A stretch of 64,000 nucleotides of DNA. Origin: Deltaproteobacteria bacterium. GTDB lineage: Bacteria > JAGRBM01 > JAHCIT01. The first letter of the stretch is position 1. Every line of letters begins with the position of its first letter. The notes under the pieces are model-generated. The model did not search any database. It saw only the letters and a list, made by a program, of their open reading frames with translations, and was not told the origin of the DNA. The stretch lies in assembly GCA_026129095.1 (NCBI GenBank), contig JAHCIT010000002.1, positions 62,001 to 126,000 of the forward strand, read 5' to 3'. The translations under genes were made by a program, and so were the position numbers. Below are positions 51,372 to 56,910 of the stretch, in pieces.

Positions 51372-51427
51372 CGGCGCCCATCGCCCGAGTGTCTACCACC
51401 CCCAGTCTCCGGAGGCAACTAGGTCCC

Positions 51428-53698
51428 ATGGCGAACACTTATTCCAAGGAAAACTACCAGAATCATCAGAAGAAAACCGAACGCGATGCCGTCAAGCGGA
51501 TTGGCAAGGACAAGGTCCAGGAACTGCCGCCGCATGCACTGATCGGCGAAAAGGCGATTTCCAAACCTGAGTTCTTCAACCTTGCAACGACCGAGAGCGG
51601 GCTTTTGGCCGTCAAGGGCGGGCTCTATCTCGGTTTTGTCATTTCGATGGTGTTTTTCATCAAGGGGTTCTGGGCGATGATTTCCCGGTGGCGGAAAGCC
51701 AGCGGGAAGTTTGACCTGAGTGACATCGGCCAGCGGGTGAAGGACTTCCTGGTATACGGCATGCTCCAGAAGCGCGTATCCGAGCGCCGGCTGGCCGGGA
51801 TCATGCACCAGATGATCTTCTACGGCTTCATCGTGCTGTTCATCGGAACCACGATCGTCGCCATCGAGTACGATATCACCCGCAAGCTGGACGAGCACTT
51901 CGGCACCAGCCTCGCCTTCTGGCATGGTGATTTTTATCTCGGCTACTCGTTTTTCCTCGATGTGATGGGACTAGTATTCATCCTCGGTCTCGGTATCGCC
52001 CTGTACCGCCGGTTCATCAAGAAACCAAAGCATCTGGAAACTTCCGTTGATGACCTACGGATCATCGGCATGTTCGGCGCCATTGCCGTCACCGGCTACC
52101 TGCTCGAAGGTGCCCGCATCGCCCTCGTGGACGAACCGTTCCGGGCCTGGTCGCCCGTTGGAAGCTGGACCGGCTACCTGCTGACCGCCATCTTCGGCGA
52201 ACCCGGCACGCCAACCGGCTTCCGCGCATGGGACCAGGCCCCTTACTGGTTCAACGGACTGGGTTATTTCCACAATTCAATCTGGTGGATCCACATGGTC
52301 CTTGTGTTCGGATTCATCGCCTATATCCCGTACGGAAAACTCGCCCACATCATCACCTCGCCGCTCAACATCTTCCTCCGCACCCACAAGCCGACGGGCA
52401 AGATGGTGACACCGTTCCAACTGTTCAACTGGAAAAAGGACGCCGACGGCAACGAAGAGTTCGAAATGCGCGAGGATATGGAGGAGTCGGAGTTTTTCGC
52501 CGGTTCATTCGGCAAGATCGAGGATCTGTCGTGGAAGCAACTCCTTTCCGTGGACGCCTGCACCAAGTGTGCCCGTTGCACGACCGAGTGCCCGGCCACG
52601 GCCGCCGGGCGGGATCTCTCACCCATGCATTTCGTATGGAACGTGGCGGGTTATTCGGCCAAGTACATGAATACACCCCTCGACCAGCGCCCCTCGCTGG
52701 TTTCCGATGACGCCATTCATCCGGAAACAGTCTGGTCCTGCACGACCTGCAACGCCTGCGTCACCGCCTGCCCGGTCTTCATTGAGCATGTAGACATGTA
52801 CATGGGCATGCGCCGCCACATGGCGAATGAGGGCAACCAGTCGCCCCACATGATCGAGACCATGAAGAAGATGGAGAACAACAAGAACCCCTGGGGCATG
52901 GCCCGCGGCGACCGCATGGCCTGGGTCAGCGACTCGCCGGTGAAGCCCGTTACGGTCGAGCAGCAGCCCGAGTTCGACGTTCTCTACTGGATCGGCTGCG
53001 CCGGAAACTACGACTCCCGCAATACGGAAGTTACCAAGTCGGTCCTGAAGCTCCTCGAAATGGCTGGCGTGAAATACGCTGTGCTGGGCAAGGAAGAGGG
53101 CTGCACCGGCGACACGGCCCGGCGGCTCGGAAACGAGGGGCTGTTCCAGCAGCTCGCCATCGAGAACATCATGATGTTCAAGATGACCGGCGTGAAGAAG
53201 ATCCTCACCCAGTGTCCCCACTGCTTCAACACGTTCAAGAACGAGTATCCCGATCTTGGCCTCGAAAATGTTGAGGTGGTTCACCACTCGGAATTCCTCG
53301 ACGAACTCGTCAAGGGCGGCAAACTCCGGCCCAAGAAGAAGATCGAGGAAAAAATCACCTACCACGACTCCTGCTACCTGGGCCGCCACAACGATAACTA
53401 CGACCACCCCCGTTCGGTGCTGGAGGCTTCCGGTGCGGAGCTGGTGGAGATGAAGCGGTCGGGAGAGCGCGGCTTCTGCTGCGGCGCCGGCGGGGCGAAC
53501 ATGTGGTACGAGGTGAAGGAAGAAGAGAAGATCAACCGCATCCGCGTGAATGAAGCGGCTGAAACCGGCGCCCAAACCGCGGCGACCGCCTGCCCGTTCT
53601 GCATGGTCATGTTCCAGGACGGCATCAAGACCACCGACCGGGAAGAAAACTTCAAGCTGAAGGATATCTCGGAGATCCTGCTCGACGCCTGCAGCTGA
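51428..53698 (+). CDS. Membrane Fe-S oxidoreductase (ETF:quinone-type, NarI/ferredoxin/CCG fusion)
   Basis: The product is 756 residues from the ATG at 51428. The N-terminal ~320 residues form a NarI-like membrane domain with about five to six hydrophobic helices and His residues (for example 127, 166, 282, 289) that could bind haem b. A two-cluster ferredoxin domain follows: C378-x2-C381-x2-C384-x3-C388 and C441-x2-C444-x3-C448 with C438. Two CCG domains complete it (Cys524, 559, 596, 599; Cys649, 684-685, 722, 725), as in heterodisulfide reductase subunit B. This architecture is known for membrane oxidoreductases that pass electrons from ETF or acyl-CoA dehydrogenases to menaquinone in beta-oxidising anaerobes and others. 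The neighbouring biotin carboxylase and enoyl-CoA hydratase support that role, but no etfAB is present in the window. Confidence 0.9.
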   Translation: MANTYSKENYQNHQKKTERDAVKRIGKDKVQELPPHALIGEKAISKPEFFNLATTESGLLAVKGGLYLGFVISMVFFIKGFWAMISRWRKASGKFDLSDIGQRVKDFLVYGMLQKRVSERRLAGIMHQMIFYGFIVLFIGTTIVAIEYDITRKLDEHFGTSLAFWHGDFYLGYSFFLDVMGLVFILGLGIALYRRFIKKPKHLETSVDDLRIIGMFGAIAVTGYLLEGARIALVDEPFRAWSPVGSWTGYLLTAIFGEPGTPTGFRAWDQAPYWFNGLGYFHNSIWWIHMVLVFGFIAYIPYGKLAHIITSPLNIFLRTHKPTGKMVTPFQLFNWKKDADGNEEFEMREDMEESEFFAGSFGKIEDLSWKQLLSVDACTKCARCTTECPATAAGRDLSPMHFVWNVAGYSAKYMNTPLDQRPSLVSDDAIHPETVWSCTTCNACVTACPVFIEHVDMYMGMRRHMANEGNQSPHMIETMKKMENNKNPWGMARGDRMAWVSDSPVKPVTVEQQPEFDVLYWIGCAGNYDSRNTEVTKSVLKLLEMAGVKYAVLGKEEGCTGDTARRLGNEGLFQQLAIENIMMFKMTGVKKILTQCPHCFNTFKNEYPDLGLENVEVVHHSEFLDELVKGGKLRPKKKIEEKITYHDSCYLGRHNDNYDHPRSVLEASGAELVEMKRSGERGFCCGAGGANMWYEVKEEEKINRIRVNEAAETGAQTAATACPFCMVMFQDGIKTTDREENFKLKDISEILLDACS

Positions 53699-53751
53699 GG
53701 GGATAGGCCCGTCTTGCCTTCCATTGGTCCCTGTGACTACACAGGAGGCAT

Positions 53752-53773
53752 ACTGAATGAACAATCATTCAGT
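53752..53773. promoter_or_regulatory. FadR-like operator (TetR-family fatty-acid regulator site)
   Basis: A perfect 22-bp palindrome has 9-bp arms ACTGAATGA and TCATTCAGT around ACAA. The core TGAATGA-N4-TCATTCA matches the published consensus of the Bacillus subtilis FadR (YsiA) operator, in which acyl-CoA binding releases the repressor from beta-oxidation genes. It sits 21 bases before the start codon of the biotin carboxylase gene and just downstream of the Fe-S oxidoreductase, fitting control of the carboxylase/hydratase pair. The regulator gene itself is not in the window. Confidence 0.7.
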
Positions 53774-53793
53774 TTCGGAAGGGGCGACGACCG

Positions 53794-55146
53794 ATGATCC
53801 GCAAGCTGCTGGTGGCCAACCGGGGTGAAATCGCATGCCGCGTGATCCGAACGGCAAAAAAGCTCGGGATCAAGACCGTCGCAGTCCATTCGGAAGCCGA
53901 CGCCAAGGCACCCCATGTGGAGATGGCTGACGAAAGCGTGCTGATCGGACCGCCCCCTCCGCCACAAAGCTACCTGAACACAGCCGCAATCCTGGAGGCC
54001 GCAAGGAGGACCGGTGCCGATGGTGTGCACCCAGGGTATGGTTTCCTCTCGGAAAACGGCGACTTTGTCCACGCCGTTCGTGGCGCCGGTCTTGTCTTCG
54101 TTGGTCCCGAAGCCGATGCCATGCACCAGATGGGAGACAAGGGCGTCGCCCGCCGGATCGTGCAGGCGGCAGGAGTGCCCACCGTGCCGGGTTCGGCCGG
54201 AATCGTCCAGACCGCTGACGATGCAAAGCTGGAAGCCGACCGGATCGGCTATCCCGTCCTGCTCAAGGCAGCGGCAGGGGGCGGCGGCATCGGCATGACG
54301 CTGGTGAAGTCAGGAGATGAAATCGTCAAGGCGTTTGAAAGCTCTTCTTCCCGCGCCCAGAAGGCATTTGGCGATGGCAGCCTCTATATCGAGAAATTCA
54401 TCGAAAATCCCCACCATATCGAGGTGCAGGTTTTCGGCGATACGCATGGCAGCGTGATCCACCTCTTTGAGCGTGAATGCTCGGTCCAGCGCCGTCACCA
54501 GAAGATCATCGAGGAAACACCCGCCCCGCTGCTCATAGGCCGGAACGACGTGCTCGGGAAAATCTTTGACGCGGCGGTACTGGCGGCGAAGGCGGTCAAC
54601 TACACGAATGCCGGAACCATCGAGTTCATCGCTGACGAGAAGGGCAACTTCTACTTCATTGAAATGAATACCCGACTCCAGGTCGAACACCCTGTTACCG
54701 AGGCCGTGACCGGGCTTGATCTCGTGGAGTGGCAGCTCCGCGTGGCTGTCGGAGAAAGACTCCCCCTCGCGCAGAGCGAGGTGAAACGTTCCGGCGCGGC
54801 GGTCGAATGCCGCATCTGTGCCGAAAACCCCGCGAAAAACTTTTTCCCGGCCCCCGGCAAGATCGATGAGCTGGTCTGGGGCGATGGCATGCGCGTGGAT
54901 ACCGGTGTCCGGGCAGGATCGGAGATCACGCCCTTCTACGATCCGATGGTCGCGAAGGTCATTGGCCACGGAGCGACACGGAGCGAGGCGATAGACCGGC
55001 TGTCCGCCGCCCTGGACAAAACGGTGATCAAACCGCTTCAGACGAACCTGAACCTCCACCGGCATGTGCTGAGGGAGGATCGGTTCCGCGCCGGGAAATA
55101 CGACACCAACTATCTCGCCACCCTGGACCTGAAACAGCTCGCCTGA
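53794..55146 (+). CDS. Biotin carboxylase (acyl-CoA carboxylase subunit)
   Basis: The product is 450 residues, a stand-alone biotin carboxylase without a fused biotin carrier domain. It carboxylates biotin using ATP and bicarbonate. The family start RKLLVANRGEIACR is intact. The ATP-grasp glycine loop is KAAAGGGGIGM (158-168), RRHQKIIEE is at about 233-241, and the active-site segment FIEMNTRLQVEHP at 288-300 has the metal-binding Glu290 and Arg294. An unusual run of five prolines occurs at 53-57. Tandem location with an enoyl-CoA hydratase and near meaB favours an acyl-CoA carboxylase (propionyl-, methylcrotonyl- or geranyl-CoA type) over the fatty-acid synthesis AccC, but the substrate cannot be read from this subunit. 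The carboxyltransferase is not in the window. A FadR-like operator lies just upstream. Confidence 0.9.
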   Translation: MIRKLLVANRGEIACRVIRTAKKLGIKTVAVHSEADAKAPHVEMADESVLIGPPPPPQSYLNTAAILEAARRTGADGVHPGYGFLSENGDFVHAVRGAGLVFVGPEADAMHQMGDKGVARRIVQAAGVPTVPGSAGIVQTADDAKLEADRIGYPVLLKAAAGGGGIGMTLVKSGDEIVKAFESSSSRAQKAFGDGSLYIEKFIENPHHIEVQVFGDTHGSVIHLFERECSVQRRHQKIIEETPAPLLIGRNDVLGKIFDAAVLAAKAVNYTNAGTIEFIADEKGNFYFIEMNTRLQVEHPVTEAVTGLDLVEWQLRVAVGERLPLAQSEVKRSGAAVECRICAENPAKNFFPAPGKIDELVWGDGMRVDTGVRAGSEITPFYDPMVAKVIGHGATRSEAIDRLSAALDKTVIKPLQTNLNLHRHVLREDRFRAGKYDTNYLATLDLKQLA

Positions 55147-55158
55147 GAGGGATTTTTC

Positions 55159-55935
55159 ATGCCGAACTTTACGTCGCTCCTGTATGAAGTGGACGGGCAC
55201 ATCTGCACGATCACGCTGAACCGCCCCGAAAAGAAGAACGCCCTGTCCCAAGCCCTTACGAACGAGATCATCTTTGCGCTGGAAACGGCCCGGGACGATT
55301 CCAGTGTCCGGGTGATCGTCCTGACCGGTTCGGGCGGCGTGTTCTGTTCAGGCGCGGATTTGGGAGGCATGGCCGATTCCCAGAAGTCTGACATCCCGCA
55401 TCGCGGGTCGTTTCCCGAACTGCTGATTGCCCAGCGGACCTGCGGAAAGCCGATCATCGCCAAGGTCCGCAAATACGCCCTGGCGGGCGGGCTGGGGCTC
55501 ATGATGGGCTGCCAGTTCGCACTGGCCGAGGACACCGCACAGTTCAGCACCCCGGAAATTGACCGTGGCATCTGGCCCATGATGATCATGGCCAATATCT
55601 TCCGGCATGTGCCGCGCCGCAAGGGACTCGAAATGTGTCTTTTTGGTGAACGGATAGACGCCAAACAGGCCGAGAACTGGGGTGTTATCAACAAGGCCGT
55701 GCCGGCGGACCAGCTTGATGCTGAAGTGGCGTCCTGGGCCCAGAGGCTGGCCGAGAAATCGCCCATCGCCATGAAGTTGGGGCTCAACGCCTTCTACAAG
55801 CAGGAGGCGATGGAGTTTGATGCGGCGGTAAAATATCTCTCAGGTGAACTTGCCAAGGTGATCAACACGGAGGACGCCCGCGAAGGAATCGCCGCGTTCC
55901 TCCAGAAGCGCAAGCCGAACTTCAAGGGGAAATAG
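55159..55935 (+). CDS. Enoyl-CoA hydratase/isomerase (crotonase family)
   Basis: The product is 258 residues with GAGAGGG upstream of the ATG, 12 bases after the carboxylase stop, so the two are probably co-transcribed. Crotonase features are ITLNRPEKKNALS near the N-terminus, the oxyanion-hole segment FCSGADLGGM, a second Gly-rich segment ALAGGLGLMMGCQFALA, and STPEIDRGIWP carrying the usual catalytic Glu. C-terminal FGERIDAKQAENWGVINKAVP is typical. The exact substrate is unclear: it could hydrate enoyl-CoA in beta-oxidation or a branched-chain intermediate such as methylglutaconyl-CoA. Its stop codon abuts that of the convergent meaB gene with no gap. Confidence 0.9.
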   Translation: MPNFTSLLYEVDGHICTITLNRPEKKNALSQALTNEIIFALETARDDSSVRVIVLTGSGGVFCSGADLGGMADSQKSDIPHRGSFPELLIAQRTCGKPIIAKVRKYALAGGLGLMMGCQFALAEDTAQFSTPEIDRGIWPMMIMANIFRHVPRRKGLEMCLFGERIDAKQAENWGVINKAVPADQLDAEVASWAQRLAEKSPIAMKLGLNAFYKQEAMEFDAAVKYLSGELAKVINTEDAREGIAAFLQKRKPNFKGK

Positions 55936-56910
55936 CTACCGGTCCGGAAAAAGTACTTTTGCAAGCGCCGGGGAATCGGCCAGAACCTTCAGGGCCGCCT
56001 CATAGGGATTCAGCGCTCCGGCGCGCACCTCGGACGCAAGCTGGCCGAGTACCCCTCCAGCGCCCGTGGCGGCTTTCAGCCGGTTTTCCATTTCATCCCG
56101 GACAATTTCCACGAACTGGGCGAGCCGCTGCTCGGCACGCTTCTGCTCGCGGGCGGGCGTGTCGCGGGTCTTCTCCAGATGCTGCCCGAATGCACCGGCG
56201 ATCTCATCCACACCCTGGTCGAGCGACGCCGCCGCGAGCAGCACCGGAACCGTCCAGTCGGGATTGTCAGACAGATGGACCATCAGTTCCAGTTCCACCT
56301 TGATCCGCTCGGCCCCGTCGCGGTCGCACTTGTTCACCACGAAGATGTCCGCGATCTCCATCAGCCCGGCCTTCATCGTCTGGATGGTGTCGCCAGCCTC
56401 GGGCACCAGAACCACGACCGTCGTGTCGGCCAGCTCCATGATATCCAGCTCCGTCTGGCCGACGCCGACGGTTTCAATCACTATCAGGCCGTAACCGGCC
56501 GCGTCGAAAACCCGCACAACGTCGCGGGTGGCCCGTGACAGCCCGCCATGCGCGCCACGGGTACCGAAACTCCGGATGAAAACACCTTCGTCCAGCGAAT
56601 GGCTCTGCATCCGCACCCGGTCGCCCAGAATGGCCCCGCCCGTGAACGGGCTTGACGGGTCGATGGCGATAACGGCCACCTTTTCACCGTGGCGGCGAAA
56701 ACGCGCAACCAGCCGGTCGGTAAGCGTGCTTTTGCCAGCACCGGGCGGACCGGTAATACCCAGCACTTTCGCCCCGCGGCTGCGGCGATAGATCTCCGCC
56801 AGCAGCTCGCCGGAACCCTCCGACCGGTTTTCCACCAGCGAGATCAGCCGGGCCAACGCCCGCCGGTCTCCAGCCAGCATGGGATCGAGAAGCGGATGGG
56901 CCACGAGCAC
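55936..56910 (-). CDS. meaB: MeaB/ArgK family GTPase, methylmalonyl-CoA mutase chaperone
   Basis: The product is 324 residues from the GTG at 56910; an ATG at 56880 ten codons in is an alternative. G3E-type P-loop GTPase motifs are GITGPPGAGKSTL (P-loop at about 54-61), DPSSPFTGGAILGDRVRM (switch region typical of MeaB), a D-x-x-G-like VGVGQTELDI, and NKCD for guanine recognition. MeaB proteins protect and reload adenosylcobalamin in methylmalonyl-CoA mutase, so the cell probably has a propionyl-/methylmalonyl-CoA pathway. The mutase genes are not in the window. The gene converges on the carboxylase/hydratase pair, which fits a shared metabolic theme. Confidence 0.93.
   Translation of the reverse strand: MLVAHPLLDPMLAGDRRALARLISLVENRSEGSGELLAEIYRRSRGAKVLGITGPPGAGKSTLTDRLVARFRRHGEKVAVIAIDPSSPFTGGAILGDRVRMQSHSLDEGVFIRSFGTRGAHGGLSRATRDVVRVFDAAGYGLIVIETVGVGQTELDIMELADTTVVVLVPEAGDTIQTMKAGLMEIADIFVVNKCDRDGAERIKVELELMVHLSDNPDWTVPVLLAAASLDQGVDEIAGAFGQHLEKTRDTPAREQKRAEQRLAQFVEIVRDEMENRLKAATGAGGVLGQLASEVRAGALNPYEAALKVLADSPALAKVLFPDR

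Follow-up and report, generated by a model that had tools for sequence, protein, structure and literature searches.

The window analysed here (the whole stretch of 64,000 nucleotides, G000:C2:62001-126000, in a genome of 3.67 Mb in 23 contigs) contains a perfect palindrome that is in all likelihood the operator of a FadR-like TetR regulator, encoded elsewhere in the same genome on contig C1, which would repress a biotin carboxylase-enoyl-CoA hydratase operon. The site, the regulator gene, the conserved pairing of the two and the identity of the targets are read directly from the nucleotide and protein sequences. The palindrome is a perfect 9-4-9 inverted repeat (ACTGAATGAACAATCATTCAGT) at positions 53752-53773, and its inner 18 bases correspond without a single mismatch to TGAATGA-N4-TCATTCA, which we take to be the operator consensus of Bacillus FadR. 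Both this match and the location of the site directly before an acyl-CoA carboxylase/hydratase gene pair (53794-55146 and 55159-55935), as proposed in a preliminary description of this DNA, were confirmed. The site and its surroundings consist of:

51389..53698, + strand: Fe-S/CCG oxidoreductase of 769 amino acids, FadF/EtfD-like electron outlet, ending 53 bp 5' of the operator
53752..53773, no strand: predicted operator, 9-4-9 palindrome with half-sites and spacer ACTGAATGA-ACAA-TCATTCAGT (motif match, and recurrence before the FadR-like TetR gene and three further acyl-CoA genes)
53794..55146, + strand: biotin carboxylase subunit of an acyl-CoA carboxylase (profile matches, solved relatives)
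55159..55935, + strand: enoyl-CoA hydratase/isomerase, 12 bp 3' of the carboxylase gene
55936..56910, - strand: MeaB (chaperone GTPase of methylmalonyl-CoA mutase), transcribed towards the predicted operon

The 95-bp gap between the oxidoreductase and biotin carboxylase genes holds the palindrome, which lies 20 bp from the latter gene, whose first codon at 53794 agrees with profile matches beginning at residue 1. Methylcrotonyl- and propionyl-CoA carboxylase alpha subunits are the nearest solved relatives of the biotin carboxylase, and its gene probably forms one operon with the hydratase gene. Among solved structures, the product of the upstream gene matches an "iron-sulfur-binding reductase" (9ojn, E 3e-102), and it is built like FadF/EtfD, presumably the electron outlet of beta-oxidation. 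The fadF gene of B. subtilis belongs to the FadR regulon (PMC4525379, accessible part), and the window motif scan found no perfect operator upstream of the 51389-53698 gene.

The promoter and terminator scans around the window site found no sigma-70-like promoter and no terminator, nor a terminator-like T run. Downstream of an AGGAGG at 53743-53748, an ATG within the operator (53757) opens a 23-codon frame (region 53743-53828), which overlaps the beginning of the biotin carboxylase gene in a different frame and may encode a leader peptide or have arisen by chance. This arrangement, together with the position of the palindrome 20 bp before the start codon, would also suit a 9-bp RNA hairpin within the 5' leader that would control the carboxylase gene by attenuation or as a switch of translation. 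Such a role is very unlikely, given the missing T run, the occurrence of the same sequence, at distances that vary, both before unrelated genes and in divergent regions, and the pattern across related TetR loci, in which the half-sites are fixed and the spacer letters free, as in protein operators. A plasmid search with the site region matched 130 records, none over more than 80% of the query, and the matches listed span the carboxylase gene, beginning only at the end of the operator or beyond it.

The perfect TGAATGA-N4-TCATTCA occurs only once in the window, at 53752-53773, and matches with up to three mismatches (3 in the window versus 1.34 in shuffles) are not significantly enriched; weight is therefore placed on the perfect match, the loose ones there being uninformative alone. 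The loose window matches would agree with a chance palindrome without regulatory role, a reading that is scarcely credible at the scale of the genome, where perfect sites exceed expectation about 2000-fold (5 versus ~0.002, calculated from the nucleotide composition, 62% G+C, of 447 kb of retrieved sequence) and precede acyl-CoA genes and the FadR-like gene. When the genome-wide scan proposed in the preliminary description was run, the motif indeed recurred before acyl-CoA genes: with up to two mismatches, it was found in 25 places (5 perfect, 3 with one mismatch and 17 with two), versus 1 for the reversed motif. The sites considered are:

window 53752-53773, perfect: before the biotin carboxylase-hydratase genes
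C1:51571-51588, perfect: upstream of the FadR-like TetR gene
C2:306891, perfect: before an AtuA-family gene, with a gene containing a BamD-like part on the other side
C2:435793, perfect: between a carboxyltransferase gene, which it precedes, and a leucyl aminopeptidase gene
C6:38929, perfect: before an acyl-CoA dehydrogenase gene
C2:401908, one mismatch: before an acyl-CoA dehydrogenase gene
C1:310113, one mismatch: inside a D-Tyr-tRNA deacylase reading frame
C6:222828, one mismatch: no large gene starts within 250 bp on either side
C10:96264, two mismatches: before a second carboxyltransferase gene
C7:53869, two mismatches: before an acyl-CoA dehydrogenase gene

For the TetR, AtuA, carboxyltransferase and acyl-CoA dehydrogenase genes, the perfect site lies a short distance upstream of the likely start codon, and the one-mismatch sites at C1:310113 and C6:222828 are probably due to chance. 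A separate scan covered 44 loci with acyl-CoA dehydrogenase (29) or hydratase (15) matches, which harbor a perfect site in two cases, a one-mismatch site in one and two-mismatch sites in two (one of them TGACTGA-like), while two overlapping loci share one three-mismatch site and the reversed motif gave none. The small number of sites implies that most dehydrogenase and hydratase genes stand outside the regulon.

The search for a FadR/YsiA-like TetR gene, likewise proposed beforehand, led to a single candidate preceded by a perfect site:

C1:50904-51542, - strand: FadR-like TetR, with TetR_N and a YsiA-like C-terminal domain

The deduced protein has 213 amino acid residues as called, the true start probably being a later Met, and its TetR_N (56.1 bits) and YsiA-like TetR_C_4 (73.3 bits) domains both score above the Pfam cut-offs. 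Its best NCBIfam model is the Bacillus FadR equivalog NF053878, with 167.2 bits and thus below the cut-off of 200, for which reason the protein is named FadR-like and not a Bacillus equivalog. The four best solved relatives (5gp9/5gpc, 5gpa, 3whb and 1vi0; E 6e-34 to 5e-30) include the FadR proteins of B. halodurans (E 6e-34) and B. subtilis (E 4e-30), after which the values drop to E 1e-13. The recognition-helix stretch VADGTIYLYFKNK is identical in the C1 protein and B. subtilis FadR, and the ELRQS stretch is kept, its arginine aligning with R109 of the B. subtilis protein, a residue termed key in the accessible part of PMC13176608. A tree of 42 rows placed the C1 protein, ten relatives and two Bacillus FadRs in one clade, whose support of 91/89 falls short of the star mark of 95/80, and among the 30 proteins with TetR_N matches in the genome the C1 protein alone fell inside it. 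Omp85/BamA-type proteins are encoded in the genome, which is consequently considered diderm. The idea of an acyl-CoA-responsive TetR repressor in a diderm lineage thus stands as far as gene, perfect site and Omp85/BamA-type proteins are concerned, its acyl-CoA response being deduced from homology, and the conservation of DNA specificity also put forward is supported by the identical VADGTIYLYFKNK and by the motif before related TetR genes.

The other 29 TetR proteins of this genome lie outside the FadR clade, with that encoded at C4:297719 next to it. TetR_C_4 is matched by only two proteins of the genome, those of C1 and C4. The window site could accordingly belong to a different TetR of the same genome, above all to this C4 protein, the closest paralogue of the C1 regulator, or to both in competition: the C4 protein carries a weak YsiA-like domain (37 bits) and its gene is preceded by TGACTGA-N4-TCAATCA, and two more TetR genes are preceded by AGAATGA/TCATTCT and GGAATGA/TCATTCC palindromes. 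We regard this as unlikely, as inspection of the upstream regions of all 30 TetR_N genes found the perfect motif only before the C1 gene, the recognition stretch of the C4 protein differs (VAYGLVYHYFKSK), and in 51 of 78 related FadR-like loci it is the homologous gene that is preceded by the motif with at most one mismatch. Assignment of the site to another regulator of this genome was rejected, the other TetR genes having related but different palindromes, and the FadR-like C1 protein is retained as the predicted cognate regulator.

These related palindromes merit description in their own right. The TGACTGA-N4-TCAATCA element before the second FadR-like TetR gene lies in region C4:297580-297856 (L057), and TGACTGA/TCAGTCA-like palindromes were found at C1:601203, C2:208044, C2:257402 and C7:4847; sites of this type occur near genes for an acyl-CoA dehydrogenase, a CoA-transferase III, an APH-family protein and an MPAB/Lcp-type oxygenase, and perhaps mark a paralogous regulon that differs in one base. 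Two close variants of the FadR operator, AGAATGAACGTTCATTCT and GGAATGATATGTCATTCC, immediately precede TetR genes at C2:222766 (L055) and C2:310755 (L047), and GGAATGA/TCATTCT palindromes are present in genome G001 too.

The pairing of regulator and operator extends well beyond this genome. In a search of 60 genomes at a threshold of E 1e-30 or better, homologues of the C1 protein were found in 14, the own genome included, and the upstream regions in the 13 others contained a perfect site in nine cases, one with one mismatch and one with two, with no site at up to two mismatches in the remaining two (three of the 13 loci were shorter than requested). A scan of species genomes returned at least 562 relatives; the 80 best of these were retained, most of them from genomes that by name are deltaproteobacterial, Desulfobacterota, myxobacterial or KSB1 metagenome genomes. 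After two loci were dropped, 78 had enough upstream sequence, and within the 300 bp scanned they showed 27 perfect sites, 24 with one mismatch, 4 with two and 23 with more than two; neither control, the reversed motif or a stretch inside the gene, gave any match at up to three mismatches (0/78). Eight loci without the standard motif (L104, L114, L122, L123, L127, L130, L138 and L142, some of them named Desulfobulbaceae) have in common, 35-193 bp before the TetR gene, a AAAATGAAT...ATTCA-like sequence that is perhaps a shifted form of the operator.

In the proposed mechanism, a dimer of the C1 regulator would sit on the palindrome at the promoter of the biotin carboxylase and enoyl-CoA hydratase genes and keep the operon off, and a rise in acyl-CoA would loosen the dimer from the DNA and turn the operon on during the breakdown of fatty or branched-chain acids; binding, repression and ligand are what we infer for it. 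The same protein would also repress its own gene and those for the carboxyltransferase, the AtuA protein and the acyl-CoA dehydrogenase at separate loci and, via weaker sites, probably two more dehydrogenases and the second carboxyltransferase. The C2 carboxyltransferase is of the propionyl-CoA carboxylase type, as judged from its solved relatives, and both subunit types of a propionyl/methylcrotonyl-type carboxylase are therefore present, the biotin carboxylase in the window and the carboxyltransferase elsewhere on C2. Because they share the operator, which links the window gene to one 320 kb away, the carboxyltransferase is a probable partner of the biotin carboxylase in one enzyme. Five Biotin_lipoyl matches, candidates for the biotin carrier, were found in the genome, none adjoining a listed site. 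From these sequence relationships the carboxylase looks to be of the propionyl/methylcrotonyl-CoA type, which implies that the regulon is not simply the long-chain set of Bacillus. The MeaB gene adjoining the operon fits a propionyl-CoA route and, taken together with the propionyl-type carboxyltransferase, suggests the use of propionyl-CoA derived from odd-chain or branched acids.

Among known regulators, B. subtilis FadR (YsiA) shares with the C1 protein the presumed operator consensus, the TetR_N and TetR_C_4 domains, the recognition-helix stretch and ELRQS. The B. subtilis operon has the order lcfA-fadR-fadB-etfB-etfA, and FadR, which C14-C20 acyl-CoA inhibits, acts as repressor of five fad operons (PMC4525379, accessible part). 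The fadR-etfBA neighborhood of that operon recurs among the best 80 related TetR loci, 36 of which contain etfB. Unlike the Bacillus protein, the C1 regulator falls below the equivalog cut-off and its gene stands apart from etfBA: no etfB-etfA pair adjoins it, its neighbors including glycosyltransferase and chorismate synthase genes, and the etfBA genes of this genome are located at C1:345804, with no listed site nearby. The split carboxylase subunits and AtuA found here are, moreover, absent from the five Bacillus operons given in the accessible part of PMC4525379. A diderm example is FadR2 of Desulfococcus multivorans, a TetR-type FadR encoded near etfA5B5 and fadF (ETF and Fe-S oxidoreductase) and proposed as mediator of a myristate-specific response, for which the accessible part of the source gives no operator (PMC5109826). 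A survey of proteobacterial regulons names FadR (GntR), PsrA, FadP, LiuR and LiuQ, which control the same pathways and of which FadP, PsrA and LiuQ also belong to the TetR family, and in its accessible part it lists no Bacillus-type FadR for Proteobacteria (PMC5343134). The FadR of Thermus thermophilus is likewise a TetR-family regulator of fatty acid metabolism (PMC5597230, in part), but of a different TetR subfamily and not an orthologue of Bacillus FadR (PMC13176608, in part), and that of Sulfolobus acidocaldarius, another TetR-family fatty acid regulator, resembles Bacillus FadR in structure but not by BLAST (PMC6449355, in part). A FadR-3 motif derived from the ligand-binding domain was reported in Bacillales in the accessible part of a 2026 motif survey (PMC13176608).

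No description of a TGAATGA operator in diderms was found in the literature searched, which included few subscription papers, so an earlier description is possible. Relative to that literature, the new elements are a regulator-operator pair spread over many diderm lineages and, in this genome, a regulon tilted towards a split acyl-CoA carboxylase and AtuA. A single palindrome thereby yields a regulon open to testing for an uncharacterised lineage of diderms, and the motif has enough specificity for the annotation of FadR regulons in further diderms, among them Desulfobacterota, Myxococcota and KSB1 metagenome genomes, groups in which a TetR-type FadR was annotated in one paper found (PMC5109826, accessible part).

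Pattern searches in 8 of the 13 genomes with a homologue detected 17 perfect sites, distributed over seven genomes, and none for the reversed motif. Six of these sites precede the TetR gene itself; seven precede genes for acyl-CoA dehydrogenase (4), thiolase (2) and 3-hydroxyacyl-CoA dehydrogenase (1); and four stand before other genes (acetyl-CoA synthetase or a TPR protein; a NuoF-like subunit or formate transporter; an MFS protein; a molybdopterin oxidoreductase). This distribution indicates that the regulon elsewhere serves mainly classical beta-oxidation; carboxylase and AtuA targets were found only in G000 when it was compared with the eight relatives. Of the 60 genomes, only G001 is a relative from the same order, and its single perfect site lies at its own TetR gene. 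The hydratase of G001, 67% identical to that of the window, is also encoded beside a biotin carboxylase, the two genes facing each other, and the 6.2-kb contig carrying them contains no site at up to four mismatches. The window site is thus not conserved in G001, which counts against conservation of this target. It may be, although we advance this wider view only tentatively, that the pair of FadR and operator is ancient and has been preserved almost without a letter changed from Bacillus to many diderm lineages, the targets being rewired by lineage, and that in this sparsely sampled lineage the regulator coordinates a split acyl-CoA carboxylase, AtuA and dehydrogenases for the use of propionyl- or branched-chain acyl-CoA, probably with a shifted acyl-CoA ligand. 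In one relative, G036, perfect sites at C95:55371 (L202) and C64:10880 (L201) lie before or between genes for a formate/nitrite transporter, a NuoF-like subunit and a pyruvate-formate-lyase-like protein, as if electron disposal were tied there to fatty acid oxidation.
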